NCBI GenBank assembly: GCA_025454525.1
Contig: JALOOG010000077.1
Span: 1 to 36,907 of the forward strand
Length of the DNA: 36,907 bases
Source of the DNA: Anaerolineae bacterium
GTDB lineage: Bacteria > Chloroflexota > Anaerolineae > Aggregatilineales > Phototrophicaceae
Reading direction: 5' to 3'
Of this stretch, positions 5,070 to 21,807 are shown piece by piece (within the stretch, counting starts at the first letter, position 1; each line of letters starts with the position of its first letter). The position numbers and the translations under genes were made by a program. The notes beneath the pieces are model-generated. The model had not been told where the DNA came from and searched no databases. It saw nothing but the letters and a program-made list of their open reading frames with translations.

Positions 5070-5167
5070 AGGTTTTCCTTGAAAATCAAAGGGGGAAACA
5101 TCACATCGCCCCAATTTACGATCGTACAGTCTACCTAGCAGATTTCGATTCAGGTAGGGGCGAAATT

Positions 5168-5193
5168 GGGAGCAGAGGTTGAACTCTGCCCCC
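5168..5193 (-). terminator. GC-rich hairpin after the SH3b-glycoside hydrolase gene
   Basis: Inverted repeat GGGAGCAGAG (5168-5177) and CTCTGCCCCC (5184-5193) with a 6-base loop and one mismatch follows the stop of the gene at 5203. On the minus strand it is followed by AATTTCG, a weak T tract, so termination is plausible but may be incomplete, letting the next gene at 5069 be co-transcribed. Confidence 0.5.
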
Positions 5194-5202
5194 GATGTTG
5201 AT

Positions 5203-6558
5203 TTATTGCGAAAGTGCGCGGCAAGCGGGGCAATCCCCACCGGGGCGGATCAAGGCAAAACCGGCCATCGGATCTGACCCATAATTGGTAAAATCGACAT
5301 TCCACACGATCAACAACCGGACGCGCCCGCTGTTGCGTGCAAGGTTGACGACTTGATCGATCCAAGCGGATTGTTGAGCAACGGTGACATTACCGGCCCA
5401 ATCGAAACCGGGAGGCAAGGGTCCATAGCCTTCGGGGGTGAGGTAGCCTAATTCGGTGAAGCACAGCGGTTTACGGCCGCGGAAAGCATTGTAATAGGTG
5501 CTAACCATAGTTGGATAGTAGCGGGTGTAATGGCTGCTGTTGCCACGCGGATCACCACTGCTGGCAGTTGGGGGTACGATGCCCTCGTTATAATGCACAC
5601 CGACGCAATCCATGTAATTCGCTGCACCGGCGGCCGCCATACGGGAGACAAACAGGTTGTCATCACATCCCACACCTGTACAACCCCCGAAGAATCCGGT
5701 AGGGGCTGGCGCGCCACTGATCACCATAACATTCGGATTCGCCGCTTTGATCGCAAAATAGGATTGACGTAACAATTCTGTGTAATTTTCCGGACTGATA
5801 GTGCCGGCCTGCCATTCGCGATCGATATTCGGTTCATTCCAGACTTCGATCGCGTCCACACCTAAGGCTGCGACACCGCCGACAAATTTAGCGTAATCCT
5901 CAAAATACCCGCCATCGTTGATCTGATTGCCATCGCCGACGATGCCCAACAAGATCCGAAAACCGTAAGAATGCGCTTCATTAATCCACCCCGCGGTTGC
6001 GCCGGGGTCTTGGCCGCGCTCGTAACGCCATTGTTTTTTGACCCAAGTCATATTAGCGACCCGCATCCAATTGATCGTCGCTTCGCTATATCCGGCGATA
6101 TGGCCGCCGAGATTAAACCCGCGCACAGTGGTTCCACCAGTGACGGGTGGCGCAACCGGAGCAGTTGGGGCAGTGGGATCGGTGGGTGTGGTCGGATTAG
6201 CTGGCGGCGGAGCGGCTAAACTACCGTCTTGGCCGGGTGCGGTCAAGGTAAACGGTTCTTCTACCCAGATCTCCCGTAAACCGGCCGCTTGTTCACGCGA
6301 AAGATTTAAGTTGTCAGTAAACATCCACCCGGTGATCCCGGTGGAGGTGATCCCGCGCACCCATGTCCCGCCGAAAGCTTGGCCATCGAGTCGAATGGTG
6401 GTGCCGGTTTGGGCCGTGCCGAGGACTCGCCATTCAGTGCCGGGGCCAGCGCGTAGGTTAACAATGGTTTTGGCCGAAGTGAGCAGATCGGCTAACTGGG
6501 CATGGGCGGGAAGTGCAAACAACAGCATTAAAAGCACGATCAGTACACGGTGTTTCAT
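5203..6558 (-). CDS. Secreted SH3b-domain clan GH-A glycoside hydrolase
   Basis: The start is ATG 6558 (MKHRVLIVLL, 451 residues), with AAGGA 9 bases upstream; the longer frame begins with TTG and lacks this support. A classic signal peptide (residues 1-20, ending PAHA) is followed by a bacterial SH3 domain (about 31-85, with VNLRAGPG and GWMFTDNL), a region ending in a Pro/Thr linker (about 112-142) and the GH-A barrel (about 145-451). Acid/base E242 (VWNEPN) and nucleophile E369 (CFTELGY) are both present. SH3b domains usually bind cell-wall material, so this enzyme may be held on peptidoglycan or glycan. It is a close paralogue of the barrel at 2103 (both end in a PGG-CPAC motif) and has its own promoter at 6631-6659. 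Confidence 0.87.
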   Translation of the reverse strand: MKHRVLIVLLMLLFALPAHAQLADLLTSAKTIVNLRAGPGTEWRVLGTAQTGTTIRLDGQAFGGTWVRGITSTGITGWMFTDNLNLSREQAAGLREIWVEEPFTLTAPGQDGSLAAPPPANPTTPTDPTAPTAPVAPPVTGGTTVRGFNLGGHIAGYSEATINWMRVANMTWVKKQWRYERGQDPGATAGWINEAHSYGFRILLGIVGDGNQINDGGYFEDYAKFVGGVAALGVDAIEVWNEPNIDREWQAGTISPENYTELLRQSYFAIKAANPNVMVISGAPAPTGFFGGCTGVGCDDNLFVSRMAAAGAANYMDCVGVHYNEGIVPPTASSGDPRGNSSHYTRYYPTMVSTYYNAFRGRKPLCFTELGYLTPEGYGPLPPGFDWAGNVTVAQQSAWIDQVVNLARNSGRVRLLIVWNVDFTNYGSDPMAGFALIRPGGDCPACRALSQ

Positions 6559-6582
6559 CAGGGCAATCCTTCTTCTCAAATC

Positions 6583-7270: not shown

Positions 7271-8347
7271 CTATTGTCGCACGGGCAGAATGTATAGGAA
7301 CGATCGCACATTAAACAGAGCTTCACGATCTAACAAAGCCATCCAACGTCCGTTTGGTGAAAACCACGCATAATCGACCCAACTGGAATTGATGCTCTCG
7401 TCTAATAATTTCAATGCATCAGTCGTTAAGTCATATTGCCATAACCCTGTCGGATCAATGTACAAAACCTCTTGATCCTCATTGACGAAATCCGCGGAAA
7501 TGAAATTTGCCATCTCTCCGCCATAAACGATCACTTGGCTTTGAGAGGTATCATGCAGATCCCAAATCATCAAATTATATTCCCCTTGCCTGAAAATCAC
7601 GTCTAACAGTAAGCGATTACCATCAGACGATATACCTGTCACACCTACCCCTGCATAAATGGTTCGTCCATTAAAATTCAGTTCGCTGATCCGTGTCACG
7701 ATAAGTTTTTGCGCTATTTCATCCCGGTCAGAAGCATATCCTGTTACATGAAATTTACGGTCATCTCCGAAACCTGTATTAAAATCCACCACAAAAGCCG
7801 AACTATCCGCGCTCCAGTTCAGTTGATAAATCCTAGCAAGAACCGAAGGCGAAGAGATAAAAATTTCTTCAGTCATCCCTGTCCAACCCGTTGCAATCTC
7901 AGTAATTGCTAAGGGAAAATGTTGTTCACCCTCAATGAAATCTTGAGCGGCATACACCACGTAGCGTTGATCTGGTGATAAGATGATCATACCGCGCTCT
8001 CCATCATCATCCATTGCGACGGGAAGACGTGCTAGGGCCTGTTGTAAAGTTGGATTGAACGGGGGTTGAGAACTTTTATTCACCTCATGTTGTGCAGAAG
8101 TATTTATTGTAACATTATACCATTTAGTGCTATCATCGAAAGGATCAGGCCCCTGCACTGAAAAGTGAGGCGGATAAATTTCCTGAAAGCTGAGCGTCTG
8201 GCTGTCTTCTGACCATCTGACATTGAGGATGTAACCAAAAGTGTTCAAAATTGGTGTGTAGGGAACGGGCGCTTGTGAGAGTGTAAATGAGATACAGAGA
8301 TAACTAATGGCCAACAAAAGCATTAAGTTTCTAACAGGACGAGTCAT
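7271..8347 (-). CDS. Secreted beta-propeller (WD40/TolB-like) protein
   Basis: The start is ATG 8347 (MTRPVRNLML, 358 residues), nine bases after GGAGGAG; the frame can be read from a TTG two codons earlier. A signal peptide (about 1-25, ending TLSQA) leads into repeated blade-like segments with the SPDQRYVVYAA, SADSSAFVVDF, SSDGNRLLLDV and SPNGRWMALLD pattern, which is typical of TolB/WD40 propellers that are built of four-stranded blades. It should be secreted and likely binds other macromolecules; no catalytic motif is visible. It is followed by the two small AT-rich frames and preceded, after a gap of about 200 bases, by the duplicated WD40 genes. Confidence 0.75.
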   Translation of the reverse strand: MTRPVRNLMLLLAISYLCISFTLSQAPVPYTPILNTFGYILNVRWSEDSQTLSFQEIYPPHFSVQGPDPFDDSTKWYNVTINTSAQHEVNKSSQPPFNPTLQQALARLPVAMDDDGERGMIILSPDQRYVVYAAQDFIEGEQHFPLAITEIATGWTGMTEEIFISSPSVLARIYQLNWSADSSAFVVDFNTGFGDDRKFHVTGYASDRDEIAQKLIVTRISELNFNGRTIYAGVGVTGISSDGNRLLLDVIFRQGEYNLMIWDLHDTSQSQVIVYGGEMANFISADFVNEDQEVLYIDPTGLWQYDLTTDALKLLDESINSSWVDYAWFSPNGRWMALLDREALFNVRSFLYILPVRQ

Positions 8348-8523
8348 GATCAAATTCTCCTCCCGGTGATGGGGTTTTTATAAGCGGTGATACAAGTGAA
8401 CAATTAAAAGGTGCATATACAACAAACCCACGATAAGCATCGGTTGTCTGGGTAATTTAATTACAGGGCTTTGGGTCGAGAAAATGATACAAACGCGCCA
8501 TGTTTTCGATCGTTTCATTAGAA

Positions 8524-8557
8524 ATTGGGGATCGGATCGAGTCTCCCTCTCCCCAAT
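8524..8557 (-). terminator. Hairpin after the first WD40 gene
   Basis: Inverted repeat ATTGGGGA (8524-8531) and TCCCCAAT (8550-8557) starts just after the stop codon of the WD40 gene at 8562. The following minus-strand bases are only weakly T-rich (ATTTCT). A matching hairpin lies after the paralogous gene at 9959-9989, so it is part of the duplicated unit. Confidence 0.5.
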
Positions 8558-8561
8558 AATT

Positions 8562-9782
8562 TTATTCGTCCGCTTTAAGCGCTTCGGCAATTGCTAACAG
8601 ATCCGCTCTGCATCCAGGTGGGATCTGATCATCGCTTAACGCTTCGATCTGCGTGGTGAACTCCCTTAGATTGGCATCAGTCGCGGTCATGATAGGGTTA
8701 GGTGTGGTGACACAGGTTTCTCTAAGGCGGTTTAAACGCTCAAGTGATGGCGTAGGAACCATAATCATGAGTTCTGCCGACGCGCTATTCGCATCAAACT
8801 TTCCTTCGATCTGCGCGGTTGCGTTTGGGGATCTCAAGATGGCTAATCTCTCAGCATAAGGACTCCAAGCTACCCCATACAAAGCCCCGATTTGGGTTTC
8901 TTGCACAATTGTACCCGTTGCAACCTCCCATTCCCTTAAAGTGCCGTCACCGCTAATGGCGCGTACCGTCTCGCCGTCGGAAGCAAAGACCACATCTCGT
9001 ACCCACGACAAAGACAATTGATCAATGTCTCTACTATCGGTTTGGTGGTAAGGATTAGCGACCCACTGACTGATCATTGCTCCTGTGTTTGCATCCCAAA
9101 GGGTAACTAGACCATTGGTGCTACCCGTAACCAATTGATTGTTATCAGGACTCCACGCAATCGTGTACATTGTGTTAGTACAACAAATCACTCTTGGTGT
9201 ATTTACTATTACGGTAAAGTCTACCGTATTCAAAATATGAACAGATAATGGGGTAGAAACCACAAGTTTTCGCCCGTCAGGGCTGAACGCTATGTCGCTA
9301 GCTGTTCCACCATTATGTGCGGAGATCTGACGACCGGTTTGAGCATCCCAGACAAATAAATTAGGCGGTGTGTCAAAACCAAAGCTAAGCAGATGAATGC
9401 TATCTGGCATCCAGATCGCTTGTACCACCGCTTCAGGGTGTCCTGATAAAGTATGAAGTAGAGCGCCATCCACCGCGCTCCACACTTTTACCGTTTGATC
9501 AAAGCTTGGAGTCGCAATCAGTCTGTTATCAGGACTCCAAGCAATCATCGGGATAAAATCCGTGTGACCTGTTAAGACGTAAAGCAGTTGACCGGTAGAA
9601 GCATCGTTGACTTCAACCTCATGCCCGATCACGACAGCCACTCGACTCCCATCGTTGCTCCAACTCGGTGGGATCACATAATCGCCTCTGCCGATTTGCG
9701 CGTGATTGAGCGCAACTGTGCCTAAGAGCAGCACCCCTATCATCAGCACGACTCGAAAATTCACGGAAGATCTGAACATCAT
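8562..9782 (-). CDS. Secreted WD40 repeat protein, copy A
   Basis: This 406-residue protein starts at ATG 9782 (a second ATG follows directly), with GGAG about 6 bases upstream. A signal peptide (about 1-29, ending ALNHAQ) precedes at least six WD40 repeats, with GH and WD dipeptides clear in LTGHTDFIPMIAWSPD, VKVW, LSGHPEAVV and LFVWDAQTG. The C-terminal 35 residues (SDDQIPPGC) form a small extra module shared with copy B. Secreted WD40 propellers serve as protein-binding platforms; no enzymatic motif is seen. It is the downstream member of the tandem duplication and has no obvious promoter of its own: the DNA before it is the orphaned tail of another gene. It may therefore depend on read-through or be poorly expressed. 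Confidence 0.82.
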   Translation of the reverse strand: MMFRSSVNFRVVLMIGVLLLGTVALNHAQIGRGDYVIPPSWSNDGSRVAVVIGHEVEVNDASTGQLLYVLTGHTDFIPMIAWSPDNRLIATPSFDQTVKVWSAVDGALLHTLSGHPEAVVQAIWMPDSIHLLSFGFDTPPNLFVWDAQTGRQISAHNGGTASDIAFSPDGRKLVVSTPLSVHILNTVDFTVIVNTPRVICCTNTMYTIAWSPDNNQLVTGSTNGLVTLWDANTGAMISQWVANPYHQTDSRDIDQLSLSWVRDVVFASDGETVRAISGDGTLREWEVATGTIVQETQIGALYGVAWSPYAERLAILRSPNATAQIEGKFDANSASAELMIMVPTPSLERLNRLRETCVTTPNPIMTATDANLREFTTQIEALSDDQIPPGCRADLLAIAEALKADE

Positions 9783-9791
9783 ATAAGCTCC

Positions 9792-9956
9792 TTACCAGCC
9801 ATTTTGAGTGAAAATCTGACGCATACGCCCATCAAAATCCCAGTGACGTACATCTCCGGATAATGAAGCATCTGGCGTACCAGGAATACCGCGGCTGTTA
9901 GCCACAAAAATAGGATGTGGTGTTGCGCTCCATGCTTGATTCAAAAATCCGGTAAG
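9792..9956 (-). pseudogene. Orphaned 3' end of a duplicated metallopeptidase gene
   Basis: In frame, the bases encode TGFLNQAWSATP through to IFTQNGW and a stop, matching the C-terminus of the 11233-13485 protein (GYLNREWSATP through to IFVQRGW). Shared anchors are WSATP, a GTPDA motif and a DFD motif before the end. A longer frame back to 10049 only overlaps the coding end of the WD40 copy B gene and its hairpin, with no credible start signal. It is therefore a truncated copy produced by the tandem duplication, sitting 9 bases before WD40 copy A as the full gene sits before copy B. Confidence 0.8.
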
Positions 9957-9958
9957 AT

Positions 9959-9989
9959 CGGGGAGACACGGATCATCTACATCTCCCCG
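9959..9989 (-). terminator. Hairpin after the second WD40 gene, at the duplication junction
   Basis: Perfect 8-bp inverted repeat CGGGGAGA (9959-9966) and TCTCCCCG (9982-9989) begins a few bases after the stop codon at 9998. No strong T tract follows on the minus strand (ATCTTACC); the duplicated gene tail starts there instead. The original T tract may have been lost at the junction. Confidence 0.5.
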
Positions 9990-9997
9990 ATATAGGT

Positions 9998-11233
9998 TTA
10001 TTCGGTCGCTTGGATCGCTTGTGCGACCGCTAACAGATCGGCTTTGCATCCAGGTGGGATCTGATCATCGGATAACGCTTCGATCTGGGTGGTAAATTTA
10101 GGGAGTATAGTGAGATCGGTAACAGGAGGGAGAACCTGTTCCAAGCTGGTCACCCGTACACACACTTGGGTAAGAGATTGTAGATATTCCAGTGAAGCAT
10201 AAGGTGTGACAATTTGCAGTAAAGAGTTTGAGCTTGCCGAAGTTGTAGGTAAAGAGGGATCAGCCAATCCCTGTATGGCCAACCGCGCACCGTATGGACT
10301 CCATGCAGCGGTCGTAAGCTGTCCGATCTGTATTTCCTCAATTAAACGTCCATCCAAACTCAACCGACGAATTGTACCGTCGCCACTTACTGTCTGAAGT
10401 GATCCATCGCTACCAAAGGTGAGATCTCGTACAAATGATAGGGTCAGATCAGGGATATTATAAGCATCTGGCTTATAATGTACGTTTGCGGGAAATTGGT
10501 TGATCTCTAAGAGAGTGGCAGCATCCCAAACGATTATGCTTCCACTGATGCTTCCGGTAACAATTTGATTGCCATCAGGACTCCATGCCAGCGCTTCCAT
10601 ACGATTATCGCAACACAATTTGGGTGATTGGTGAATCGTTCGTTGAAGGGTTTGTCCATTATGTAGAGATAATCCCAAAGAGTAGGATATGGCTAATACT
10701 TCTCCATTGGGACTAAAGGCAGCGTCAACAATCGTTCCCGCCTGAGTCGACCCTTTAAGCACGCCCGTTTGTGAATCCCATACCAATAGATTAGGATTAT
10801 TTTCAACACCAGAACTAATGAGCTGTGTTCCATCTGTCGACCAAATAACGTGGATTACTTCCTCGTTGTGTCCGGTCAAATTATGTAGCTGTATTCCTGT
10901 ATCTCCGTTCCAAATCTTGACCGTTTGATCAGCGCTGGCACTAGCGAGATTAAGGGTCGTTGGACTCCAGTTCACACGATTGATCCTATCCGTATGCCCT
11001 TCCAAACGATGAAGCAGAGATCCGGAAACCACCTCGTAGATGAGAACAGTCGTTTCATCGATAAGAGCCACACGACTTCCATCGTAGCTCCATGCTGGCG
11101 GAGCGATAAACAGTGACGCATTTTGCATCATACTCCTTTCTAAACGTAATGCGAGGAGTGAAACGATTACCACAATGCATAAAACTAGGCGATATATCAA
11201 TCCATTCATCAGAATTTTTCCCTTTGTTCTCAT
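9998..11233 (-). CDS. Secreted WD40 repeat protein, copy B
   Basis: The ATG at 11233 overlaps the stop codon of the metallopeptidase gene (TAATG), with GAGG 6 bases before it, giving 411 residues; an ATG at 11209 is an alternative. The N-terminus (MRTKGKILMNGLIYRLVLC) has a basic start and a hydrophobic stretch to about residue 34, so it is exported or anchored. WD40 repeats follow, with GH/WD motifs in LEGHTDRINRVNWSP, VKIW, LTGHNEEVIHVIW and LLVWDSQTG, and the same SDDQIPPGC C-terminal module as copy A. Stop-start overlap shows tight translational coupling with the metallopeptidase, so the two products probably work together, perhaps the propeller binding the enzyme or its target. Confidence 0.83.
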   Translation of the reverse strand: MRTKGKILMNGLIYRLVLCIVVIVSLLALRLERSMMQNASLFIAPPAWSYDGSRVALIDETTVLIYEVVSGSLLHRLEGHTDRINRVNWSPTTLNLASASADQTVKIWNGDTGIQLHNLTGHNEEVIHVIWSTDGTQLISSGVENNPNLLVWDSQTGVLKGSTQAGTIVDAAFSPNGEVLAISYSLGLSLHNGQTLQRTIHQSPKLCCDNRMEALAWSPDGNQIVTGSISGSIIVWDAATLLEINQFPANVHYKPDAYNIPDLTLSFVRDLTFGSDGSLQTVSGDGTIRRLSLDGRLIEEIQIGQLTTAAWSPYGARLAIQGLADPSLPTTSASSNSLLQIVTPYASLEYLQSLTQVCVRVTSLEQVLPPVTDLTILPKFTTQIEALSDDQIPPGCKADLLAVAQAIQATE

Positions 11234-13485
11234 TACCAACCTCGCTGAACAAAAATGCTACGAACACGCCTATCAAAATCCAAGTATCTGCGATCGCCCG
11301 GAAGACGTGCATCAGGGGTTCCAACAAGTCCGCGACTGTCGGCCACAAATCCTGATGCAGGTGTTGCGCTCCATTCACGATTTAAATAACCGAGGCCTGA
11401 CCAATGATTGTGTGTTGGCAACGGAGTCAACAAACACGTATCTGTTGCGTTAGCTCCGCCGCTGCTATTAAGACGGTAAACCCAATTTAGAAATGAGTCA
11501 GCGGCAGTTTCTATGGCGGTATCCTCCGGGTTTTGCTGAAAATCTGTGATCAGTGGTACTGGAGTCTGAGCAAAGTTGTAATATTGCTGTGGTCCTGTCC
11601 CCCACCCCCGTCTGCCACGCGTAAAGGCCCCAATCATTACACTTGCCCCGCTACAATCTGTTAGCAAAAATACACCATTGTCGATTGGTCCTGACAATCC
11701 ATACAATGTACGATAGTCAAAAAGGTGCCCCAACTCATGAACGATGGTGTACTCACTCGCTTCTAAAATGGGTATTGTACCGCTGTACTGGTCCGTTAAG
11801 GCCCCATTGCAGACCACCGCCGCCGGACGTATCAAGGTACTGGTCACACTTTCTTGGAAGGTGAAACACGATCCCTGTGGTATACCGGGATAGGTAAAAT
11901 TGGCACTTTGTCCGGCTCGGCTCCCGTGTTGGTATTGGTAATTGTTGATCGACACGCTAGCCACACCTGTTTGTTGCGTTCGGATAAATAGAATTTCCGT
12001 GCCGCTATTTTCAAGCATAGCGAGATTGAAAGCGGCTTGGGGTGAATTGACGGTCATGGCCAGATAGTCGAAGGCACGCCCCACGTTAGAGACACCGGTG
12101 TTAATGGCAATCTGTTCTGCGCTAGACCATTGCCTAGAGCCATCACTGATCACATTGATCTTATAAATGTCCTGTGATAATGGTGGAGGGGGTGGCGGCG
12201 CAGGAACTGGGCAATTAAGGGGTGTATTGACTGTACCAGATGGGTTTTGTTGGCCAAAAGTGACGTTGAAAGATGCATTCAGCGCTGAGCGAAGCATATC
12301 CGAGGTGTATAATGGACTCCAAAAACTTCGATTGACTGGATAATCTGGGTTTTCGGGGCGGTTATAGATCCCACCCCAACGAATGGCACCATTGTTGATG
12401 AATTGACTGTAACGGAGGTTGAAGAACGCACCTATGTCGTTGTAAATTACCCCACCTTCTAGGGTCAAAGTTCCGCCCCTGCTTGCACCATTTGCTTCAA
12501 AGCGGTTGCAGTAGGTCCGATCGGTGGCGGTGGGTAAAATTGTGACCGTGCCGCCTTGTTGATTATAGATCGCTGCCCCATACCCCCGATCGGTGGTTCG
12601 GTTGCGGAAAAAGGTCGTCTGTGCGAGTTGCACCACCCCTCCGTTCCAATTCATAATCGCACCACCAAATTTATTTGCCCAATTTTCTGATAAGATCACA
12701 CGATACAGGTTGACCACGCCAAAGTTGAAGATCGCGCCACCGTGCTGTCTACGCGGTGGGGTGTTCAATGAAGAGTATACGCCCCCTTGATTCAGAGTGA
12801 GATCGTACAAGGTCAAATTCGCTTTACCATTGATGTTTCCTTCCACAAAGAAAAAGCTGAAAGCAAAGCGCGCCGTAGATGCACGTTGCAAAACCACCTG
12901 ACCGGGTATTGCGGGCGTGTTGCCATCGCCTTGTACACCGCGAATGATGACACTTCTACCGATAGCGATCGACTCTACCGCACTCCAATGGACGCACCCT
13001 TGGCTCGTTTGCCCGATACAATCCGTAAAGATGTAGGTACCTGGTTTAAGCAAGATCACAAACGGATCGGGATTGGTTCGCGTTTCCACGATCGCTTGGC
13101 GCAGGGCAGCCACATCCCCACCTTCAATTATGCGATAAACATAGTTGAGGTTGCGTGTGGGATCAGGTGGGATGTAACCGACCGTTGGCATCGGTGATGG
13201 AGTCCAAGTCGGTTCGGCTTCGATCACATCTAAATTCGCCGCACCCGTCGGATCGATCAGCGGTGCTTCGGGTCCGATCAGCGTCGGGGTTTGGGTGGGC
13301 GTGAAGGAAAACACAGGGGTGTCAGCGGTGGGTGTTTCGGTGATGAACATCGGCGTGAACTCCAGATCAGCGGTGCTTTCATTCGTGGGCAACGGGATCA
13401 AGTCGTCTTGTGCGATAGAACGTGCGAACAAGGTCGCAATCACCAACAGCAAGAGCGGGACGATAGCGCGGTAATAGTGTTTCAT
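11233..13485 (-). CDS. Secreted beta-helix plus zinc metallopeptidase-like protein
   Basis: This 750-residue protein starts at ATG 13485 after GAAGGAC. A signal peptide (about 1-26, ending ARSIAQ) is followed by a Thr/Pro-rich stretch, a right-handed parallel beta-helix of the Pmp/polymorphic repeat type (about 110-400, with GGAIFNFG, GGAIMNWNGG and GAAIYNQQGG), a Pro-rich hinge, and a C-terminal domain with the zinc motif HELGH (583-587) in YTIVHELGHLFDY. A possible third ligand is E659 in ETAADSF, as in gluzincin-type peptidases. It should act outside the cell on proteins, with the beta-helix as binding or adhesive part. It is translationally coupled to WD40 copy B. Its promoter and leader are repeated, inverted, at 36338 and beyond. 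Confidence 0.8.
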   Translation of the reverse strand: MKHYYRAIVPLLLLVIATLFARSIAQDDLIPLPTNESTADLEFTPMFITETPTADTPVFSFTPTQTPTLIGPEAPLIDPTGAANLDVIEAEPTWTPSPMPTVGYIPPDPTRNLNYVYRIIEGGDVAALRQAIVETRTNPDPFVILLKPGTYIFTDCIGQTSQGCVHWSAVESIAIGRSVIIRGVQGDGNTPAIPGQVVLQRASTARFAFSFFFVEGNINGKANLTLYDLTLNQGGVYSSLNTPPRRQHGGAIFNFGVVNLYRVILSENWANKFGGAIMNWNGGVVQLAQTTFFRNRTTDRGYGAAIYNQQGGTVTILPTATDRTYCNRFEANGASRGGTLTLEGGVIYNDIGAFFNLRYSQFINNGAIRWGGIYNRPENPDYPVNRSFWSPLYTSDMLRSALNASFNVTFGQQNPSGTVNTPLNCPVPAPPPPPPLSQDIYKINVISDGSRQWSSAEQIAINTGVSNVGRAFDYLAMTVNSPQAAFNLAMLENSGTEILFIRTQQTGVASVSINNYQYQHGSRAGQSANFTYPGIPQGSCFTFQESVTSTLIRPAAVVCNGALTDQYSGTIPILEASEYTIVHELGHLFDYRTLYGLSGPIDNGVFLLTDCSGASVMIGAFTRGRRGWGTGPQQYYNFAQTPVPLITDFQQNPEDTAIETAADSFLNWVYRLNSSGGANATDTCLLTPLPTHNHWSGLGYLNREWSATPASGFVADSRGLVGTPDARLPGDRRYLDFDRRVRSIFVQRGW

Positions 13486-14000: not shown

Positions 14001-17000
14001 ATGCCTATTCAAAACTCGGATACACCCTTTCAAAAATCACCGGAGAGCGGTCAAGCACTGGTCGAATACGCATTGATCGCGGTGTTGGTCGCGTTAGCGT
14101 TTGGTTTTGCGCTGGCTGCTACTGGCCCTGCTTTAGGGAATGTGTTTAGCAATTCGATTGATGACTTGCTCCGCCAAACAGAAATCGCCAATGAAGACAT
14201 CCCGGGACGTGAGGGATTTTGGGAGACGGTAACACACGCGTTTGAAAATCCACCCCAAGAGCGTGGTCTACCGACCAATACACCGGCCCCACCCACGACT
14301 GAACCCACCGCCGGGCCATCACCGACACCGACTAACACGGTCGCGACCAACACACCCATGCCTAGCCGCACCCCCCGCCCTACTGCGACCCAAGTCGATA
14401 TTATTCATAATGCTCCCTTCTATGACTCGATCGATCAGCCATTGCTTTGGCGCGCCGATCCGAATATCAATCTCTTGGGACGGCCTTGGGAAGCGGACTT
14501 CTATAACGGTACGAACACCACCATTACCACAAATACGCGCGTCAATCCCGCCCGCGTAACGGGGATCTGGACAGTGGACTTTAATACCGCGCCGCTGTAT
14601 ACCTCTCCTAGTGGCACACCGCAAAATTCGACCAACTTCTCCGCAAGTTTTTCGCGCTACATCGAATTAAGCGAACGCCGCAGCATTGCGGTGCGTGTTT
14701 TGACCACGGGACGTATCCGCATCTTGGCGCGTAGCGGCACAAATCCTCCTACCGAGTTACTCACTTGGTCAAGCGCGGGGGGCGCGGAACGTTGGTATTA
14801 TGCTTCGGTCGTTTTAGATCCGATCGCCAATCCCGAATACCATGAATTGATCGTGGAGTATATCCATACCACTGGCCCAGTGCGGCTTTTGGCTTTGGTT
14901 CATGCCGCCGGTGCAAATCCCGATGATACCTATATCGACGGGGGTGGCAATGCCAGCACGGCCCAAGCATTCGGTTGTAACTGGGGACGTAACGATTATA
15001 TCAATGGCAACAACGCCAACACCGAAACGATGATGTGGGATGAGTTCTTTGATGATACCAGCGAGGACAATCGCTTACCCACCAGCTCACGTTGTTACCT
15101 AGAATTGCGCGGTGGTGTGCAGATTCCCACCACGGCAGTAACCCCACAATTGGTATTTTGGTCAGTTTGGGATCTAAAGACAGGTGCGGAGGCATGGCTA
15201 GAGGTCTCGCAATATGTACGTGTTTCGGGTGGTGGTACCATCCCGATCCCCGATCGTGGCGCGATGAGTCTGTTGTGGAGGCGCGTTAATGTCGGGATTA
15301 CGGCCAACTCCCGTAACTATAACTGGACACGTCATGTCGTTGATCTACGCTCTGTCACTTTGAGCAATGGCGCAGCGATTGACTTTAATCAACCTGTCAC
15401 TTTCCGATTGGTGATCGAAAACCGTGGCGCATCAAATAGCGTTAACCGTTGGTATGTGGACGACGTTGAGGTGCGTGATGCAGGTGCGGCGCGGGTATTC
15501 ACCATGAATGAACCGATCTTCACCATGGATCGCGATGAAGACTTGCTTAGCTTCATTCGCACGGGTGGACGGAGCAACAACGGCTTGATCAGCGGTTGGC
15601 ACTTGGTCTCGAACAACAAATTCGGCGCAGGTGGACGCTCACTCCATGAAAGCGTGGGGCCATCTGATCCGACGGATAGTGTAGCCGAAGTGGGACGTTA
15701 TACGGAATATAAACGGCACACCCAAGCGCCCACCTCATCGGATAACCGCGATGTCCGGGTGCATTACGTCGAATTTAACGGCTTTGTTGACCTGACGCAA
15801 GCCAATACCGCCGATGTCTTAGGCAATACCGGCCCGATCGCCCTCTCCTTCTATCATGCTTATGATTTGGGACGGAATACGGGTCTGGCGGTGCAATATA
15901 CTACGGATGCGTATTCGGTCGCAGTTCCCACTTGGACGGATCTACCTGAAGGCCGACTCCGTGCGGTGGATGCAAGCAACACGATTACTAATATCACCAT
16001 GCAAGAGCATGTGATCCCGTTGGCTACCTTGCCCGCAAGCGGAATCAACCGTATTCGTATTCGGTTTGCGATGTTTGTTCGTACTGACGCGGATCGGCGT
16101 GATGGCTGGTGGATCGATCAAATCCGTTTAGGCCGTGAAGAGTCGCCCCAATGGATCGATTACCCCTACTATGACAACGCACAACGCTTTGTGACAGGGC
16201 CATGGCGTTATCGTGGCAATTGGGCGCAAACCAACGAGACCGGTCGTCCGAACTTTGATGAACCGACCGACGCGGGGTATCGCCGTCAATCGTATTCGTC
16301 GTCACCGCGTGGTAATTACACGCCCAACCAAAAAACCGATATGCTGTTGCGCTTCCCGTTGGATGTCTTTAATGACACCAGCACCAAGACCGTGTTTGAA
16401 AAAACCACCAATCCCACCCAAAACACGGGCGGTGATATGCGGGCAGCGGCTAATCCGATTCTCTCGTTCTATCACACTCGGGATCTCGCTTCAGGTGATG
16501 ACTTCTATGTGGAATGGAAACGAGTTAGTGAACCGGACACCGATACCAATTGGCGACGCTTATGGATCTACAAGTCGGGCATGTCTACCGATCCCACGGT
16601 GACCAATGCGGAAACGCGCCGTCAACTGGGTTGGGAACGGGTACAAATCCCGCTTGCGCCGATGATCGCGACTTTAGTGGCCGCCAACGATGCGACCCTC
16701 ACCGATGACGATGTGGTATTCCGTTTTGTGTTGCATGGCAAATCGATCAACTCTGGCAGCGGGATCTATATTGACGACATCGCCGTTGAAAATGGCCCGA
16801 ACTTTGCCGCTGATCCGGTTGATTTCCAATTGTGGGTCGGAAGTCGCACGAACCCGATCGGGGGTGGTGCATTACCGACAGGCAATGGTGCGGCCCTGTT
16901 TGATGACCCAGATGCGTCATCAACCAATCGTTCATGGGATCGGAGCTGGTTCAATGGTGGTCACTGGATGGCCGTGGATTATGAAGCCCGCTCTGGGACA

Positions 17001-18770
17001 AGCAGTTTCCACGATAGCCCCACCGGAACTCAATTCCGTGATGAAAATGCTGAAGCACCAAACGCGGTGACGTTCGGTGGTACGGTGAACATCGGTGAGC
17101 CGGGTTGGTTCACGATCAACGACTCATTTAGCGTCTTGGAACTCAATAACGTGATCGATTTGCGCGCTACGAATCGTGAAACCGAAGCCCCTGTTCTCAG
17201 ATGGTGGCATCGGTATCATATCGGCAATGGTACGACGATCGCGGTTCAAATTTCGACAGAAGACACGGTAGAGACTGAAACACAATTCAGAACACGTTGC
17301 CGTTTGGTCTCAGGTGAAACGACCACCGATTGTTATGAACAACGGCGTGGTTGGTCACGCTGGAACACGGTATGGTCTGTCACCACCGCCAGCAATCGTG
17401 AAGCGCGTGCGTATGGTTGGGAACGTGAACAGATCAACCTAAATGACTATGCCCCTGATCCTTCCAGCAACACTCCCGGGCGACGGATTCGCGTGCGCTT
17501 TGTCTACAACACCTTGATTGGTGGATCGAATCAATTTGACGGTTGGTATCTGGATCGCATCAGCGTGCAACACTCACTTCCACCAACAGTCGATCCGGTG
17601 GTATTACGCAACGTAGCCAGTTGGTCAGCGCCGATCGATCGTTTGCTGGGTTGGGTGACTGAAGGCAGTTGGGGTCTTGACCCGAACATCTATATCGGGA
17701 CGGGCGGTTCACCGGTTACGTTCGGTGTGTGGAATGTTCGTTGGTTCGATTGTTCTTGGTTCGATTGTTCGGGAAGAAACAGCGCGGCGCGTTGCGGTGG
17801 ATCTTCGTTTAACATCACCAATGTCGGTAATTTCTTCAATAACGAAAGCAACTGGACTCAGTTTGAATATCAACAAACTGTCACCGGCTTGCGCTACAAC
17901 TTAGGCAACGGTGCGCCTCCTGGAGCGCCCACAGGTGCCTTTAGATTTAGTGGTAGTGATGCGATTGAATTTGGGGCGGTCGCAACCCTAGATACTCCCG
18001 TGATCGATCCTGCAAACGGCTTCCCAGCCGGGAATCGCGCCTTGTTCCTCACTTCCGACGATGGATCGCGGGCATGGTTCTATGAAATTGACGCGGGTGG
18101 GAATCGTGTCGGGGCAAAAAGTAACATCGTCAACCAATGGCAAAATCAAGCCCCGACGTTAGCGGTTGGCCCGATGTTCTTTGACCTAGGCAAACGCTAT
18201 CGGATCGAGGTGCATTACTTTGAAGGCTCAGGCGGTGCGGTCTTGTTGGCAGAAATCGGCGAGGGGCGTTATTCGTTTAGCGACAGCCCACGCTATGGGG
18301 GGGTGAGTGTGCCGGACGCACAACCGCTTTCGTATGATCTGCGTGGGTTAAGTTCACCGACGGTCGTCTATCTGGAATACCTGACGCAATATCGTTTTAG
18401 CTCATCTACCAATGCTGTGTTTGAAGTCAGCACCGACGGTGGCTTTACTTGGCGCACTGATGGACTCGGTAACGATATTGGATCGGTCAATATGGATGGT
18501 GCATCATTTAGCGACGGTACACAACCCAGCATTGGCCCTGGCTCGCCTGGTGCCAACAACAGTTGGAACACTAGACGGCATAACCTGACCGAATACCTCG
18601 GCGCGCAATTGACCTTCCGTTTCCGCTATGATCGGCAAAACGTATCCTGTTTACGGACTCGTGGAGATAGCATCAGTAATAGCACCCGTTGCGAACCGCT
18701 ATCAGGGACACCCTCGAATGGTTTCTACGACGGATGGTGGATCGGATCGGTGGTGATCTACCGTCAATAA
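14001..18770 (+). CDS. Giant Flp-type pilin fused to a multi-module beta-rich ectodomain
   Basis: The 1,589-residue protein begins with a Flp (type IVb) prepilin signal: a short leader ending in G17, then Q18-A-L-V-E22-Y23, which is the G/xxxxEY processing motif, followed by a hydrophobic helix (about 20-45). A Thr/Pro linker (about 90-130) leads to about 1,450 residues of beta-rich sequence. Five closing-strand motifs of the immune-inhibitor-A/MAM-like type occur: RWYVDDVEV, GWWIDQIRL, GIYIDDIAV, GWYLDRISV and GWWIGSVVIY (near 15450, 16100, 16760, 17540 and 18730). I infer a pilus-linked or membrane-anchored adhesin. Normal Flp pilins are only 50-80 residues. No Tad assembly genes are in the window. 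AAGGG precedes the ATG and a strong terminator follows. Confidence 0.82.
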   Translation: MPIQNSDTPFQKSPESGQALVEYALIAVLVALAFGFALAATGPALGNVFSNSIDDLLRQTEIANEDIPGREGFWETVTHAFENPPQERGLPTNTPAPPTTEPTAGPSPTPTNTVATNTPMPSRTPRPTATQVDIIHNAPFYDSIDQPLLWRADPNINLLGRPWEADFYNGTNTTITTNTRVNPARVTGIWTVDFNTAPLYTSPSGTPQNSTNFSASFSRYIELSERRSIAVRVLTTGRIRILARSGTNPPTELLTWSSAGGAERWYYASVVLDPIANPEYHELIVEYIHTTGPVRLLALVHAAGANPDDTYIDGGGNASTAQAFGCNWGRNDYINGNNANTETMMWDEFFDDTSEDNRLPTSSRCYLELRGGVQIPTTAVTPQLVFWSVWDLKTGAEAWLEVSQYVRVSGGGTIPIPDRGAMSLLWRRVNVGITANSRNYNWTRHVVDLRSVTLSNGAAIDFNQPVTFRLVIENRGASNSVNRWYVDDVEVRDAGAARVFTMNEPIFTMDRDEDLLSFIRTGGRSNNGLISGWHLVSNNKFGAGGRSLHESVGPSDPTDSVAEVGRYTEYKRHTQAPTSSDNRDVRVHYVEFNGFVDLTQANTADVLGNTGPIALSFYHAYDLGRNTGLAVQYTTDAYSVAVPTWTDLPEGRLRAVDASNTITNITMQEHVIPLATLPASGINRIRIRFAMFVRTDADRRDGWWIDQIRLGREESPQWIDYPYYDNAQRFVTGPWRYRGNWAQTNETGRPNFDEPTDAGYRRQSYSSSPRGNYTPNQKTDMLLRFPLDVFNDTSTKTVFEKTTNPTQNTGGDMRAAANPILSFYHTRDLASGDDFYVEWKRVSEPDTDTNWRRLWIYKSGMSTDPTVTNAETRRQLGWERVQIPLAPMIATLVAANDATLTDDDVVFRFVLHGKSINSGSGIYIDDIAVENGPNFAADPVDFQLWVGSRTNPIGGGALPTGNGAALFDDPDASSTNRSWDRSWFNGGHWMAVDYEARSGTSSFHDSPTGTQFRDENAEAPNAVTFGGTVNIGEPGWFTINDSFSVLELNNVIDLRATNRETEAPVLRWWHRYHIGNGTTIAVQISTEDTVETETQFRTRCRLVSGETTTDCYEQRRGWSRWNTVWSVTTASNREARAYGWEREQINLNDYAPDPSSNTPGRRIRVRFVYNTLIGGSNQFDGWYLDRISVQHSLPPTVDPVVLRNVASWSAPIDRLLGWVTEGSWGLDPNIYIGTGGSPVTFGVWNVRWFDCSWFDCSGRNSAARCGGSSFNITNVGNFFNNESNWTQFEYQQTVTGLRYNLGNGAPPGAPTGAFRFSGSDAIEFGAVATLDTPVIDPANGFPAGNRALFLTSDDGSRAWFYEIDAGGNRVGAKSNIVNQWQNQAPTLAVGPMFFDLGKRYRIEVHYFEGSGGAVLLAEIGEGRYSFSDSPRYGGVSVPDAQPLSYDLRGLSSPTVVYLEYLTQYRFSSSTNAVFEVSTDGGFTWRTDGLGNDIGSVNMDGASFSDGTQPSIGPGSPGANNSWNTRRHNLTEYLGAQLTFRFRYDRQNVSCLRTRGDSISNSTRCEPLSGTPSNGFYDGWWIGSVVIYRQ
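17742..17771 (+). repeat. Perfect-class 15-bp tandem duplication inside the pilin gene
   Basis: Two adjacent 15-base units (TGGTTCGATTGTTCT then TGGTTCGATTGTTCG) differ only in the last base and encode WFDCSWFDCS. It adds five residues with one extra Cys and looks like a recent slippage event. Confidence 0.75.
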
Positions 18771-18907: not shown

Positions 18908-19507
18908 ATGACCATGCAAGGTTTAATCTTTATCCTCGTTGGGCCGGGCGGTGCGGGCAAAAACTCGTTGATGAAAACGGTCTTGCCGCGCTTTGATCAC
19001 TTGCGTCAGATCCCAACCGCAACCACTCGTCCCCCGCGCCCCGGTGAAGAAGAGGGACGAGAACACCTCTTTGTCAGCACAGAAGGTTTTCATGACTTGA
19101 TCACACAAGGCGCATTGATCGAACATGAGGAAGTGCATCCGGGCAAATTCTACGGCGTGCCGCGAATGGTGGTAGAGGCCGCGATCGCCGAAGATCGCGA
19201 TCTAATCGCCGATGTCGAATTGGCCGGTGCAGCCAAAATCCGTACCGCTTATCCTAAAAACACCGTATTAATCTTCATTGCCCCGCCGTCCTTAGACGTG
19301 CTAGAATCGCGGATGCGTGAGCGTGGCGAGAATGATCACGGCATTGCAGAGCGCGTCGCACGGGCCGAACGCGATATGACCTTTCAGGCCGAATGTGATT
19401 ATGTGATCGTCAACACCGAGTTTGAACAGGCCAGCGAACAACTCTATCAGATCATCGCCACGGAGCGGAGTCGCCGCCATGAGCGCGCTTTAATCAACAT
19501 GGGATAA
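18908..19507 (+). CDS. gmk: Guanylate kinase
   Basis: This 199-residue protein matches guanylate kinase along its length; the enzyme makes GDP from GMP and ATP in the cytoplasm. Visible features are the P-loop GPGGAGKNS (12-20), the GMP-binding TTRPPRPGE, FYGVP, the DVELAGA strand-helix, IFIAPPS before the lid region, and YVIVNTEFEQA near the end. The P-loop has Asn19 where many kinases have Ser or Thr; some true guanylate kinases have Gly there with the hydroxyl residue next, as Ser20 is here, so activity is likely. It is shorter at the N-terminus than some and starts at ATG 18908 (or 18914). It is 23 bases upstream of the NACHT gene. Whether it is the only gmk in the genome, or a paralogue, cannot be seen. 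Confidence 0.85.
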   Translation: MTMQGLIFILVGPGGAGKNSLMKTVLPRFDHLRQIPTATTRPPRPGEEEGREHLFVSTEGFHDLITQGALIEHEEVHPGKFYGVPRMVVEAAIAEDRDLIADVELAGAAKIRTAYPKNTVLIFIAPPSLDVLESRMRERGENDHGIAERVARAERDMTFQAECDYVIVNTEFEQASEQLYQIIATERSRRHERALINMG

Positions 19508-19530: not shown

Positions 19531-21807
19531 ATGACCGCCGCATTAACACAGTATTTAGAGGCTCAGATCGGGAAATTTAAGGAGGAACAAACCGCCTTTA
19601 TCCCGCTCACCTTGCAACACACGATCACCCACACCTATTTCGACACCCAACGCGATCAAACGTGTGGGATCGAGGACATTGACTATCCTCAATATGTGTT
19701 GATCGGCGATCCGGGCGCGGGTAAATCGACCACCTTGCGCGATCATTTCATCCGTCAAGCGAAAACTTGGCTTCGCGAGGGTAACAAGGCCCCGATCCCC
19801 TTTTGGATCAATCTGGGTTACAGCGAAAACCCGATCGATGCTGAGAAGTTGATCGATTACTGGTGGGCGATGATGGGTTTGGCGGCCGATGCGTGGTGGG
19901 TGCATTTGCGAAACCATCAATTGATCCTCTACCTTGACGGACTCAATGAGATGCCCGAAAACGACCGCGGTTCACGTCATCAGCGCGCCGAGTCGCTGAA
20001 AGCCTTTTTATACCGACAAGGCCAAGACTGGGGTTTGCGTGCATTGATCACCTGTCGCATCCGTGATTATGAGGATGACGAAAAGCTCCGCCTCGGAGAT
20101 CAGCTCCCCGTGGTGAGCGTCTTGCCATTGGATGTCACCCAACGCGATCAGATCATCCAAGGCATGTTAGGCACGTTACCGTCGGAACTGCTCACCACAA
20201 TTGAACGCCATGAACCCCTCCAAAAGATCAGCCTGAACCCGTTGAATTTGTCGATGTTAGTGACGGTCTATCAGGAAAATCCCCAAGCGATCGAGTCGAT
20301 CGATTTACGCAACCTGTACGGGCGTTATTTGCGTTCACGTCATCGGGATTTTGCGCGTCAAAACAAACTCTCATTGCGTTTATCCCCGCGTTTGAGTCCC
20401 GAACAGATCGAAAAGCGGATCGATCGCCATTGGCAACAGACCGAACGCGGCTTGCGTTATCTCGCTTTCCGCATGTTAAGCGAAGGACAAGGCACAACCG
20501 CCGATCGGGATTGGATCTATGGTTTCATCCCTTTAAAAGCAAAACAAGAAATAATGAGATTACTATCACCAATTTTTTGGTACAAGGAAAAAATATCCCC
20601 ATCTGATATTTTAGGCATAGTTTCAGAGATTTTTCTCTTTTTGCTTCGTCCGCTACGTTACCGTTACGCTTTAAAGGACGGTTTTAATCTTGGCGCAGTT
20701 ATTCAAGATCAAAATACCATTCATTTTTATCATCAATCAATTCAAGGCTACCTTGCCTCTCCCTTGCTATCAGAGGCATTAAGTGACGAACGAACTTTAA
20801 ACGATCGGGTTCAACTTATCCGTCAGTTAGGAGATCTAGAGGAAGCTGGTTCCGAAGCTATTCCTGCTCTAATGAGTTTACTTAATCATCAGGATAAAGA
20901 AATTTATCTCGCAGTGATGAATGCGTTAAGGCAAATTGGTCAACCCAGCATACCCATATTGATTCAAACATTAAATAATACCGATAGAACTATGTGTGGT
21001 CGTGCAGCAGTTATTTTAGGAAGAATCGGGGATGAAACATCGGTGCAATCCTTAATCACTTTAATAGAACATCGTGACGGGGGTGTAGTAGCCTGTGCGA
21101 TCGATGCCTTGGGCAATCTTGCACATAAAAGTGCTGTTTCACCCTTAGCAACCAAATTACTTGATCATAGAAGCTATCTACGGAGTCGAGCTGCTATTAC
21201 ATTAGGTAAAATCGGTGATGTAAGGGCCGTCCAACCCTTAATCGTGGCGTTAAACGACTCAAGTTACCATGTACGTAGACACGCAGCAATATCATTGGGT
21301 ACATTAGGAGATATAGCTGCTGTTCAATCATTACTGACTTCTCTAAGTGATCCTAATGAAGATGTACAAGCTTGTGTTGTTGCTGCGTTAGGTAAGCTTG
21401 GTCATCCAAGCGCAATTCAACCGCTTATTGGCTTGTTCAATAACGGCCATCAAGCAGTCATTCGTAATACGGTTACTGCTTTGGGACAAATAGGTGAAAC
21501 TGCTATAGCACCATTAATCAAAGCTTTAAGCGCACCAGAAGCCTCTCTTCGCTATTGTTACAAGATAAGACAGGCCTTAGCCGCCATCGGTGAACCTGCC
21601 TTACATCCCCTGATTGCGTGTTTAGATGATACCAGCATCAATGCTCGATATATCGCAGCACAACTTCTAACAAAAATAGGCACAATTGACGCATTAAATG
21701 CCGTTAAAAATTATAATGAGCGTTACCCGAATGATTTTGATGAAATACTGATGAAAGACATGGCAGAAAGCCTTGCTCAAACGATACTATCAATCCGCGT
21801 AAGATAA
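19531..21807 (+). CDS. NACHT-family STAND NTPase with C-terminal HEAT repeats
   Basis: This 758-residue protein has a NACHT NTPase module near its N-terminus: Walker A GDPGAGKST (59-67), Walker B LILYLDGLNE (131-140) and a sensor-like ITCRIRDY (173-180). A helical region follows to about residue 420, then about nine HEAT/PBS-lyase repeats (about 430-735) with the alternating RRHAAISLGTLGD and AVQSLL pattern. STAND NTPases of this kind switch on when their repeat domain binds a trigger; many bacterial NACHT proteins act in phage defence, others in signalling. No separate effector domain is seen before the NTPase. From about 20530 on the gene turns AT-rich and GATC-poor, so the sensor half seems to have been replaced. 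It lies between gmk and ygfZ on the same strand. Confidence 0.85.
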   Translation: MTAALTQYLEAQIGKFKEEQTAFIPLTLQHTITHTYFDTQRDQTCGIEDIDYPQYVLIGDPGAGKSTTLRDHFIRQAKTWLREGNKAPIPFWINLGYSENPIDAEKLIDYWWAMMGLAADAWWVHLRNHQLILYLDGLNEMPENDRGSRHQRAESLKAFLYRQGQDWGLRALITCRIRDYEDDEKLRLGDQLPVVSVLPLDVTQRDQIIQGMLGTLPSELLTTIERHEPLQKISLNPLNLSMLVTVYQENPQAIESIDLRNLYGRYLRSRHRDFARQNKLSLRLSPRLSPEQIEKRIDRHWQQTERGLRYLAFRMLSEGQGTTADRDWIYGFIPLKAKQEIMRLLSPIFWYKEKISPSDILGIVSEIFLFLLRPLRYRYALKDGFNLGAVIQDQNTIHFYHQSIQGYLASPLLSEALSDERTLNDRVQLIRQLGDLEEAGSEAIPALMSLLNHQDKEIYLAVMNALRQIGQPSIPILIQTLNNTDRTMCGRAAVILGRIGDETSVQSLITLIEHRDGGVVACAIDALGNLAHKSAVSPLATKLLDHRSYLRSRAAITLGKIGDVRAVQPLIVALNDSSYHVRRHAAISLGTLGDIAAVQSLLTSLSDPNEDVQACVVAALGKLGHPSAIQPLIGLFNNGHQAVIRNTVTALGQIGETAIAPLIKALSAPEASLRYCYKIRQALAAIGEPALHPLIACLDDTSINARYIAAQLLTKIGTIDALNAVKNYNERYPNDFDEILMKDMAESLAQTILSIRVR

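Follow-up and report, generated by a model that had tools for sequence, protein, structure and literature searches.

A giant modular pilin of the Flp class in Aggregatilineales (Chloroflexota): a candidate Tad-assembled, probably glycan-binding adhesin

How Tad pili adhere to specific targets despite their small, nearly featureless subunits is an open question, for which recent work in diderm bacteria implicates tip complexes of the TadE/F/G class. The window analyzed here, a 36,907-nucleotide stretch of contig JALOOG010000077.1 from an Anaerolineae bacterium, poses this question for the Flp class, as a pilin start is followed within one gene by a protein approximately 25 times the usual Flp size. 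It also raises the question of whether the Tad motor, suited to very small subunits, could cope with one of 1,600 residues. A first-pass annotation made from the sequence alone had described an ORF of 1,589 residues at 14001-18770 (+), and this is indeed a single, uninterrupted reading frame with an ATG start and no internal stops. We describe its product as a giant modular pilin of the Flp type, belonging to a family present in 78 of the 141 genomes of the order.

The N-terminus carries the hallmarks of a Flp pilin, as the annotation had proposed. Residues 1–60 are MPIQNSDTPFQKSPESG/QALVEYALIAVLVALAFGFALAATGPALGNVFSNSIDDLLRQ, and the class III signal residues G17, E22 and Y23, whose positions had been given correctly, are located within SPESGQALVEYALIAVLV. 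The hydrophilic leader, residues 1–16 (14001-14048, +), is predicted to be removed by cleavage after G17 and is only 16% identical within the family, as is typical of leaders; the leader of the window copy lacks a net positive charge, which counts against a Tad-pilin reading. Within the signal G17/Q18-A-L-V-E22-Y23 (14049-14069, +), Q18, E22 and Y23 show no variation among 22 family members and position 17 next to none, being G in 26 and A in one of 27 sequences. The pilin helix, residues 18–59 (14052-14177, +), includes the segment GPALGNVFSN and is modeled as two helices at residues 18–40 and 42–59. Residues 17–53 are approximately 60% identical to the small Flp pilins of the host genome itself, of which a genome-wide Flp_Fap search detected only two. 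BLOSUM62 alignment of the pilin region with these two Flps gave scores of 111 and 109, whereas 500 shuffles yielded means of 22–25 (standard deviation 4.4–4.8) and a best score of 44, indicating that the likeness to Flp is beyond chance. Pfam Flp_Fap (PF04964) matches residues 15–53 with E=2e-4 in a whole-protein search, and in the genome-wide search the giant pilin scores 27.4 bits (E=1.9e-5) compared with 27.0 and 26.2 for the small Flps, all three alike missing the Pfam gathering score of 32.2. Pfam detected neither a TadE nor a Tad (TadG) N-terminal domain in the window protein, nor, at E up to 1, the N-methylation motif of the IPR012902 type, and the pilin region aligns with the 832-residue TadE of the host with a score of 51, versus 111 for Flp. 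Thus, by all tests applied, the first 60 residues are a Flp pilin.

The protein as a whole is distinctly larger than a canonical Flp, with 1,589 residues against 50–80, and is for this reason classed as a Flp-class modular pilin rather than as a canonical Flp. It has two of the properties by which modular type IV pilins are recognized, an N-terminal pilin module with a class III signal and a linker-joined module of a kind not restricted to pilus biology. The pilin helix is followed by a short modeled helix, residues 70–82 (14208-14246, +), with an invariant F73-W74 pair (FWxTV), and by a Thr/Pro linker, residues 85–135 (14253-14405, +), for which pLDDT is below 50 at positions 85–129. Structure prediction, which the annotation had recommended with the first 60 residues included, places the two pilin helices ahead of a row of beta-sandwiches; sequence and models alike bear out the Thr/Pro linker and the beta-rich region of approximately 1,450 residues beyond it.

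The identity of the ectodomain domains, on which the annotation was silent, emerged from two structure models that used 22 family members as alignment and covered residues 1–940 (mean pLDDT 71.4) and 930–1589 (71.1). At a mean pLDDT of ∼71, the models are reliable for each domain and silent on the mutual arrangement of domains, and the borders given below carry an uncertainty of some 10 residues or more. Models and profiles resolve the ectodomain into a predicted order of a PA14 domain, four jelly rolls of the MAM/InhA type, a second PA14 domain and a last MAM-like domain. PA14-like domain 1 extends over residues ∼136–315 (14406-14945, +); residues 159–303 resemble the PA14 domain of RsgI3, 6qe7 (VIA Z 12.9), and 6m8m (Z 10.8), and the family profile matches 6qe7 in the PDB with E=1.8e-27 over profile positions 171–313. 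Jelly roll 1, residues ∼316–495 (14946-15485, +), closes with RWYVDDV and is identified from the model and from matches of the reelin/MAM type. Jelly roll 2, residues ∼496–715 (15486-16145, +), closes with DGWWIDQI and is assigned by model and fold comparison. For jelly roll 3, residues ∼716–936 (16146-16808, +), closing with GIYIDDI, residues 720–934 match the MAM domain of meprin beta, 4gwm (VIA Z 13.9, rmsd 2.6, 148 residues aligned), and for jelly roll 4, residues ∼937–1195 (16809-17585, +), closing with DGWYLDRI, residues 961–1193 match meprin beta (VIA Z 13.2) and InhA2, 4yu5 (Z 11.2). PA14-like domain 2 occupies residues ∼1196–1426 (17586-18278, +), residues 1242–1425 aligning with the PA14 domain of an RTX adhesin, 6m8m (VIA Z 13.3, rmsd 2.8, 146 aligned). 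The C-terminal MAM-like domain, residues ∼1427–1589 (18279-18767, +), closes with DGWWIGSV and is the least certain, being based on modeled strands and a weak InhA-like_MAM match at 1474–1543 (E=0.017). Of 22 family members, profiles detect InhA-like_MAM in 19 and PA14 in 16.

These assignments account for the five module-closing motifs that the annotation had spaced at about 650, 660, 780 and 1,190 bases. The motifs are found at residues 483–489, 702–708, 921–927, 1181–1187 and 1578–1584, spaced by 657, 657, 780 and 1,191 bases. An Asp is present in the first four (487, 706, 925 and 1185) and is replaced by Gly in the fifth (GWWIGSV). Models and sequence profiles agree in identifying the motif as the last strand of the MAM/InhA-type jelly rolls, and the 1,191-base interval arises because PA14-2 sits between two jelly rolls. 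The two PA14 domains differ in their ligand motif. In PA14-2, Asp1353-Asp1354-Gly1355 (18057-18065, +), the calcium/sugar motif of PA14 lectins, falls in invariant columns and is kept in 24 of the 24 sequences that reach this region, while the Asp-Asp motif of PA14-1 is missing from the window copy and from several relatives, a loss that counts against the glycan-binding reading and suggests that PA14-1 may be structural. In MpPA14 (6m8m), the DcisD motif coordinates a calcium ion through which vicinal hydroxyls of sugars are bound (PMC8092209). As judged from its domains, the giant pilin probably binds glycans.

A phmmer search with the window protein alone against PDB sequences returned nothing, the PA14 relatives being found only with the family profile, and NCBIfam holds no family for the window protein; the labels that it assigns to relatives, M36-protease or choice-of-anchor J, are read as reflecting the shared MAM-like jelly roll. 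Whole-chain Foldseek hits to reelin, Cry and Vip3 have low TM-scores that reflect jelly-roll composition only, and a kinship with toxins is not inferred.

The annotation had suggested that the same layout in related genomes would support its reading, and such a family exists. A search of 60 relatives detected co-linear proteins of ∼1,270–2,000 residues with the same pilin start. Of 141 genomes of the order, 78 have pilin plus ectodomain, a tally counted from listed rows over draft genomes of related lineages; it comprises 72 genomes in which a single match spans pilin and PA14, and six with pilin and linker in frames of more than 960 residues. Relatives share 63% of residues with the window protein over the pilin helix, 46% over the linker and 25–35% over the ectodomain; in the sequences compared, conservation is thus highest in the helix with its GPAxGNVFSN segment. 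The gene is usually located between a divergent folD and gmk-gcvT, across several families, with gmk adjacent in 18 and folD in 17 of 22 loci (folD and the amidohydrolase neighbor were named from their sequences). In the window, the guanylate kinase gene gmk, identified by Pfam, lies downstream at 18908-19507 (+) and serves as a synteny marker rather than as part of the pilin. One relative, OLB13, was found in a search of genome contigs; among the matches listed (E to ∼1e-13) in a 400-genome sample of the phylum, there were no further pilin-plus-PA14 proteins outside the order.

The annotation had named a genome devoid of Tad peptidase and assembly genes as one finding that would overturn its proposal. 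The search for Tad genes that it had proposed recovered CpaB, TadZ, TadA, TadB, TadC, TadE, a TadG-like protein, an A24 peptidase and the two small Flps. Host contig 78 carries CpaB/RcpC, a TadZ-like protein, TadA, TadB, TadC and a two-component system in one cluster, contig 79 carries TadE, a TadG-like vWA protein and a second TadE, and contig 161 encodes an A24 prepilin peptidase, the only one found in the genome. No match to a secretin was obtained in the host genome; Chloroflexota Tad systems have likewise been reported to be without a secretin (PMC12488501). The giant-pilin gene itself adjoins gmk, outside the tad cluster, which is counted against a Tad-pilin reading. At L041:4278-11357 in the host genome, a TadE of 422, a TadG-like vWA protein of 1,082 and a TadE of 832 residues, with Thr/Pro linkers, are further oversized Tad minor pilins that may possibly form a tip complex. 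Downstream of the tad cluster, L040:10218-14138 encodes a 1,306-residue protein with a weak match to a DyP-type peroxidase N-domain.

Across the order, the giant pilin and the Tad machine are found together. TadB/C are present in all 78 genomes with a giant pilin, and none of the 38 genomes lacking TadB/C is among these 78. Taking genomes as units, the association has a Fisher p of 7e-18, a value which overstates it as the lineages are not independent, the absences of TadB/C falling in about four lineages (g2, g11, g17 and g19). Within genus g17, a single genome, G502, has TadB/C and is also the only one with a giant pilin, its sisters lacking both. TadE was absent from all six Tad-minus genomes tested. 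At the locus itself, gmk or gcvT adjoins folD or its neighbors in these genomes and the giant-pilin gene is missing; wherever folD and gmk lie side by side the locus is closed, gmk beginning approximately 55 bases after folD in G010. Single matches to the A4 profile (E ∼1e-18) in G001 and G500, which lack TadB/C, are taken as PA14-only on grounds that come from G001, where the full protein gives one weak match and the gmk locus is without the gene. Several TadB/C-positive genomes, including G003, G014 and G491, lack the giant pilin, indicating that it is an accessory rather than a core part of the system. Small Flp pilins persist in G033 and G035 (L083 and L084), where searches recovered neither TadB/C nor TadE.

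The same ectodomain also occurs on a different carrier. In G039 and G046, both of genus g27, it stands behind a TadE-type N-terminus (GQALVEFALILPVVLFLIFGILDFGR) in place of Flp, in proteins encoded at L086:4774-10317 (-) and on L148 from 1233 (+). These homologous ectodomains are co-linear with residues 111–1586 of the window protein (E 3e-52 and 7e-54). This suggests that the ectodomain is mobile among Tad pilin carriers, and the swap provides the strongest single hint that its task is tied to Tad pili.

Combined, these results make it probable that the gene product is a modular minor pilin of a Tad (type IVc) pilus with a Flp-class carrier, likely situated at the tip and binding glycans. 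From what is known of the pathway, the helix would enter the membrane and the single A24 prepilin peptidase would cut after G17, as the motif and the presence of the enzyme suggest. The mature Flp helix, with its Glu+5, would then be taken up by the TadA/TadB/TadC motor in the same manner as the small Flps, a step with which the restriction of the giant pilin to TadB/C-containing genomes is consistent. According to the literature, Chloroflexota have no outer membrane. With neither secretin nor outer membrane, the filament would have to cross the wall only, and the flexible Thr/Pro linker would keep the ∼1,450 residues of PA14 domains and jelly rolls outside the filament. The jelly rolls would act as a stalk for the PA14 domains, of which mainly PA14-2 would attach, with calcium, to glycans of surfaces, polysaccharide or neighboring cells. 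We infer the role as an adhesin and the location at the tip, both of which draw support from the restriction to TadB/C genomes and from the presence of PA14 and MAM-type domains. More generally, we lean toward the view that Flp subunits, regarded so far as no more than the small building blocks of Tad pili, too carry giant multi-domain, lectin-like ectodomains, that monoderm Chloroflexota have a Tad tip or shaft adhesin made of a single polypeptide, and that its ectodomain can be swapped between Flp and TadE carriers.

The position within the pilus follows less directly. The tip is favored by the TadE swap and by size, which should impede packing within the shaft, while the flexible linker permits a place in the shaft. 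The Tad-assembled pilin could be inserted at intervals, its ectodomain hanging sideways off the filament; approximately 50 disordered linker residues would allow this, the carrier belongs to the shaft subunit class rather than to TadE/F/G, and Raynaud et al. consider a location in the pilus body possible for modular pilins given a sufficiently flexible linker (PMC8179133). We regard such decoration as unlikely, as a filament built of small helices would become crowded by subunits bearing ∼150 kDa each, and one genus has a carrier of the tip class under the same ectodomain.

A tip-exposed, Tad-assembled pilin is also to be weighed against a surface adhesin that is held in the membrane and never polymerized, its Flp helix being a mere signal anchor. 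The annotation itself had named an ordinary signal anchor in the first 45 residues as a second finding that would overturn its proposal; this refutation, like the first, fails. The helix could suffice to anchor the protein in the membrane, the gene lies outside the tad cluster, and the survival of small Flps in genomes without TadB/C suggests that Flp helices may serve outside pili. A plain anchor, however, is not expected to retain Q18, E22, Y23 and GPAxGNVFSN, to disappear along with TadB/C or to be swapped for a TadE pilin, and we consider this explanation doubtful at best.

The ectodomain could alternatively capture or degrade polysaccharide as food, with adhesion being secondary, since PA14 and jelly-roll modules are also known from glycosidases, sugar sensors of anti-sigma factors and surface glycan-binding proteins. 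Pfam, NCBIfam and fold comparison detected no catalytic domain in the window protein, and a pilus would be an odd carrier for feeding, rendering this reading improbable. In a 230-contig draft, misassembly or misannotation could conceivably have fused a Flp gene with that of an unrelated surface protein. Such an artefact is refuted by conserved synteny and by intact, single-frame ORFs of the same architecture across dozens of genomes, including cases on long contigs and the single-contig genome G027, and its probability is negligible.

The favored reading, a Tad-assembled minor pilin with a glycan-binding ectodomain, extends concepts that are established for other pilin classes. Modular type IV pilins were described from PilB and PilC of Streptococcus sanguinis together with an InterPro survey (Raynaud et al. 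2021, PMC8179133). The survey, keyed to motif IPR012902, lists more than 1,200 proteins in 264 architectures, with PA14 among the grafts and 860 residues in the most extreme example (PMC8179133). Like the giant pilin, these proteins combine a pilin module, a linker and a functional module of non-pilus type, and tip exposure has been proposed for them; unlike them, the giant pilin has a Flp-class carrier, ∼1,270–2,000 residues and six or seven grafted domains. Variable domains at Tad tips have likewise been documented, in the TadE/F/G class, for KilL/M/N of Myxococcus and CpaJ/K/L of Caulobacter (PMC12075869, PMC12607857). These Tad-dependent minor pilins have large variable or vWA domains and a proposed tip location; however, they are TadE/F/G-like and modeled as heterotrimers, whereas the N-terminus of the giant pilin is a Flp, the shaft class. 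With Flp/Fap pilins (PF04964) it shares the signal, Glu+5-Tyr+6, the helix and GPAxGNVFSN, but canonical Flps stop at 50–80 residues and the giant pilin continues for another 1,500.

The grafted domains have similar precedents. MpPA14 and the RsgI3 PA14 domain share the fold and the Asp-Asp-Gly of PA14-2, but are carried by RTX adhesins and an anti-sigma factor rather than by a pilin. InhA-type MAM domains (PF20773), the jelly rolls of meprin and reelin and the cleaved adhesin domains of gingipains have the same fold and the closing motif W(W/Y)(I/V/L)D; the giant pilin differs in having no protease domain and in bearing five copies per chain on a pilin. A full-text literature search, with most subscription journals outside its scope, found no published description of a Flp-based giant pilin. 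Modular pilins and TadE/F/G tips being known, it is the Flp-based version that appears to be new. The family suggests that a Flp subunit of a large monoderm lineage bears a ∼150-kDa, probably glycan-binding ectodomain, which would extend the modular-pilin concept to the Flp class and provide a candidate adhesin for the Chloroflexota of this order.

The surroundings of the gene in the window depart from those in related genomes. On the upstream side, WD40-type genes stand where relatives carry folD: at 7271-13485 (-), two WD40 propeller proteins, a 360-residue protein without a family and a 750-residue protein with a weak match to repeats of the Chlamydia PMP type take the place of folD and the amidohydrolase. 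Downstream, gmk and gcvT, direct neighbors at most related loci, are separated by the gene for a NACHT-ATPase with HEAT repeats (758 residues, 19531-21807, +); the PADLOC match to this protein is only of the HEAT-repeat type. Further upstream, at 2103-6579 (-), a 1,045-residue protein that matches glycosyl hydrolase 18 is encoded beside a 458-residue protein with a bacterial SH3 domain.
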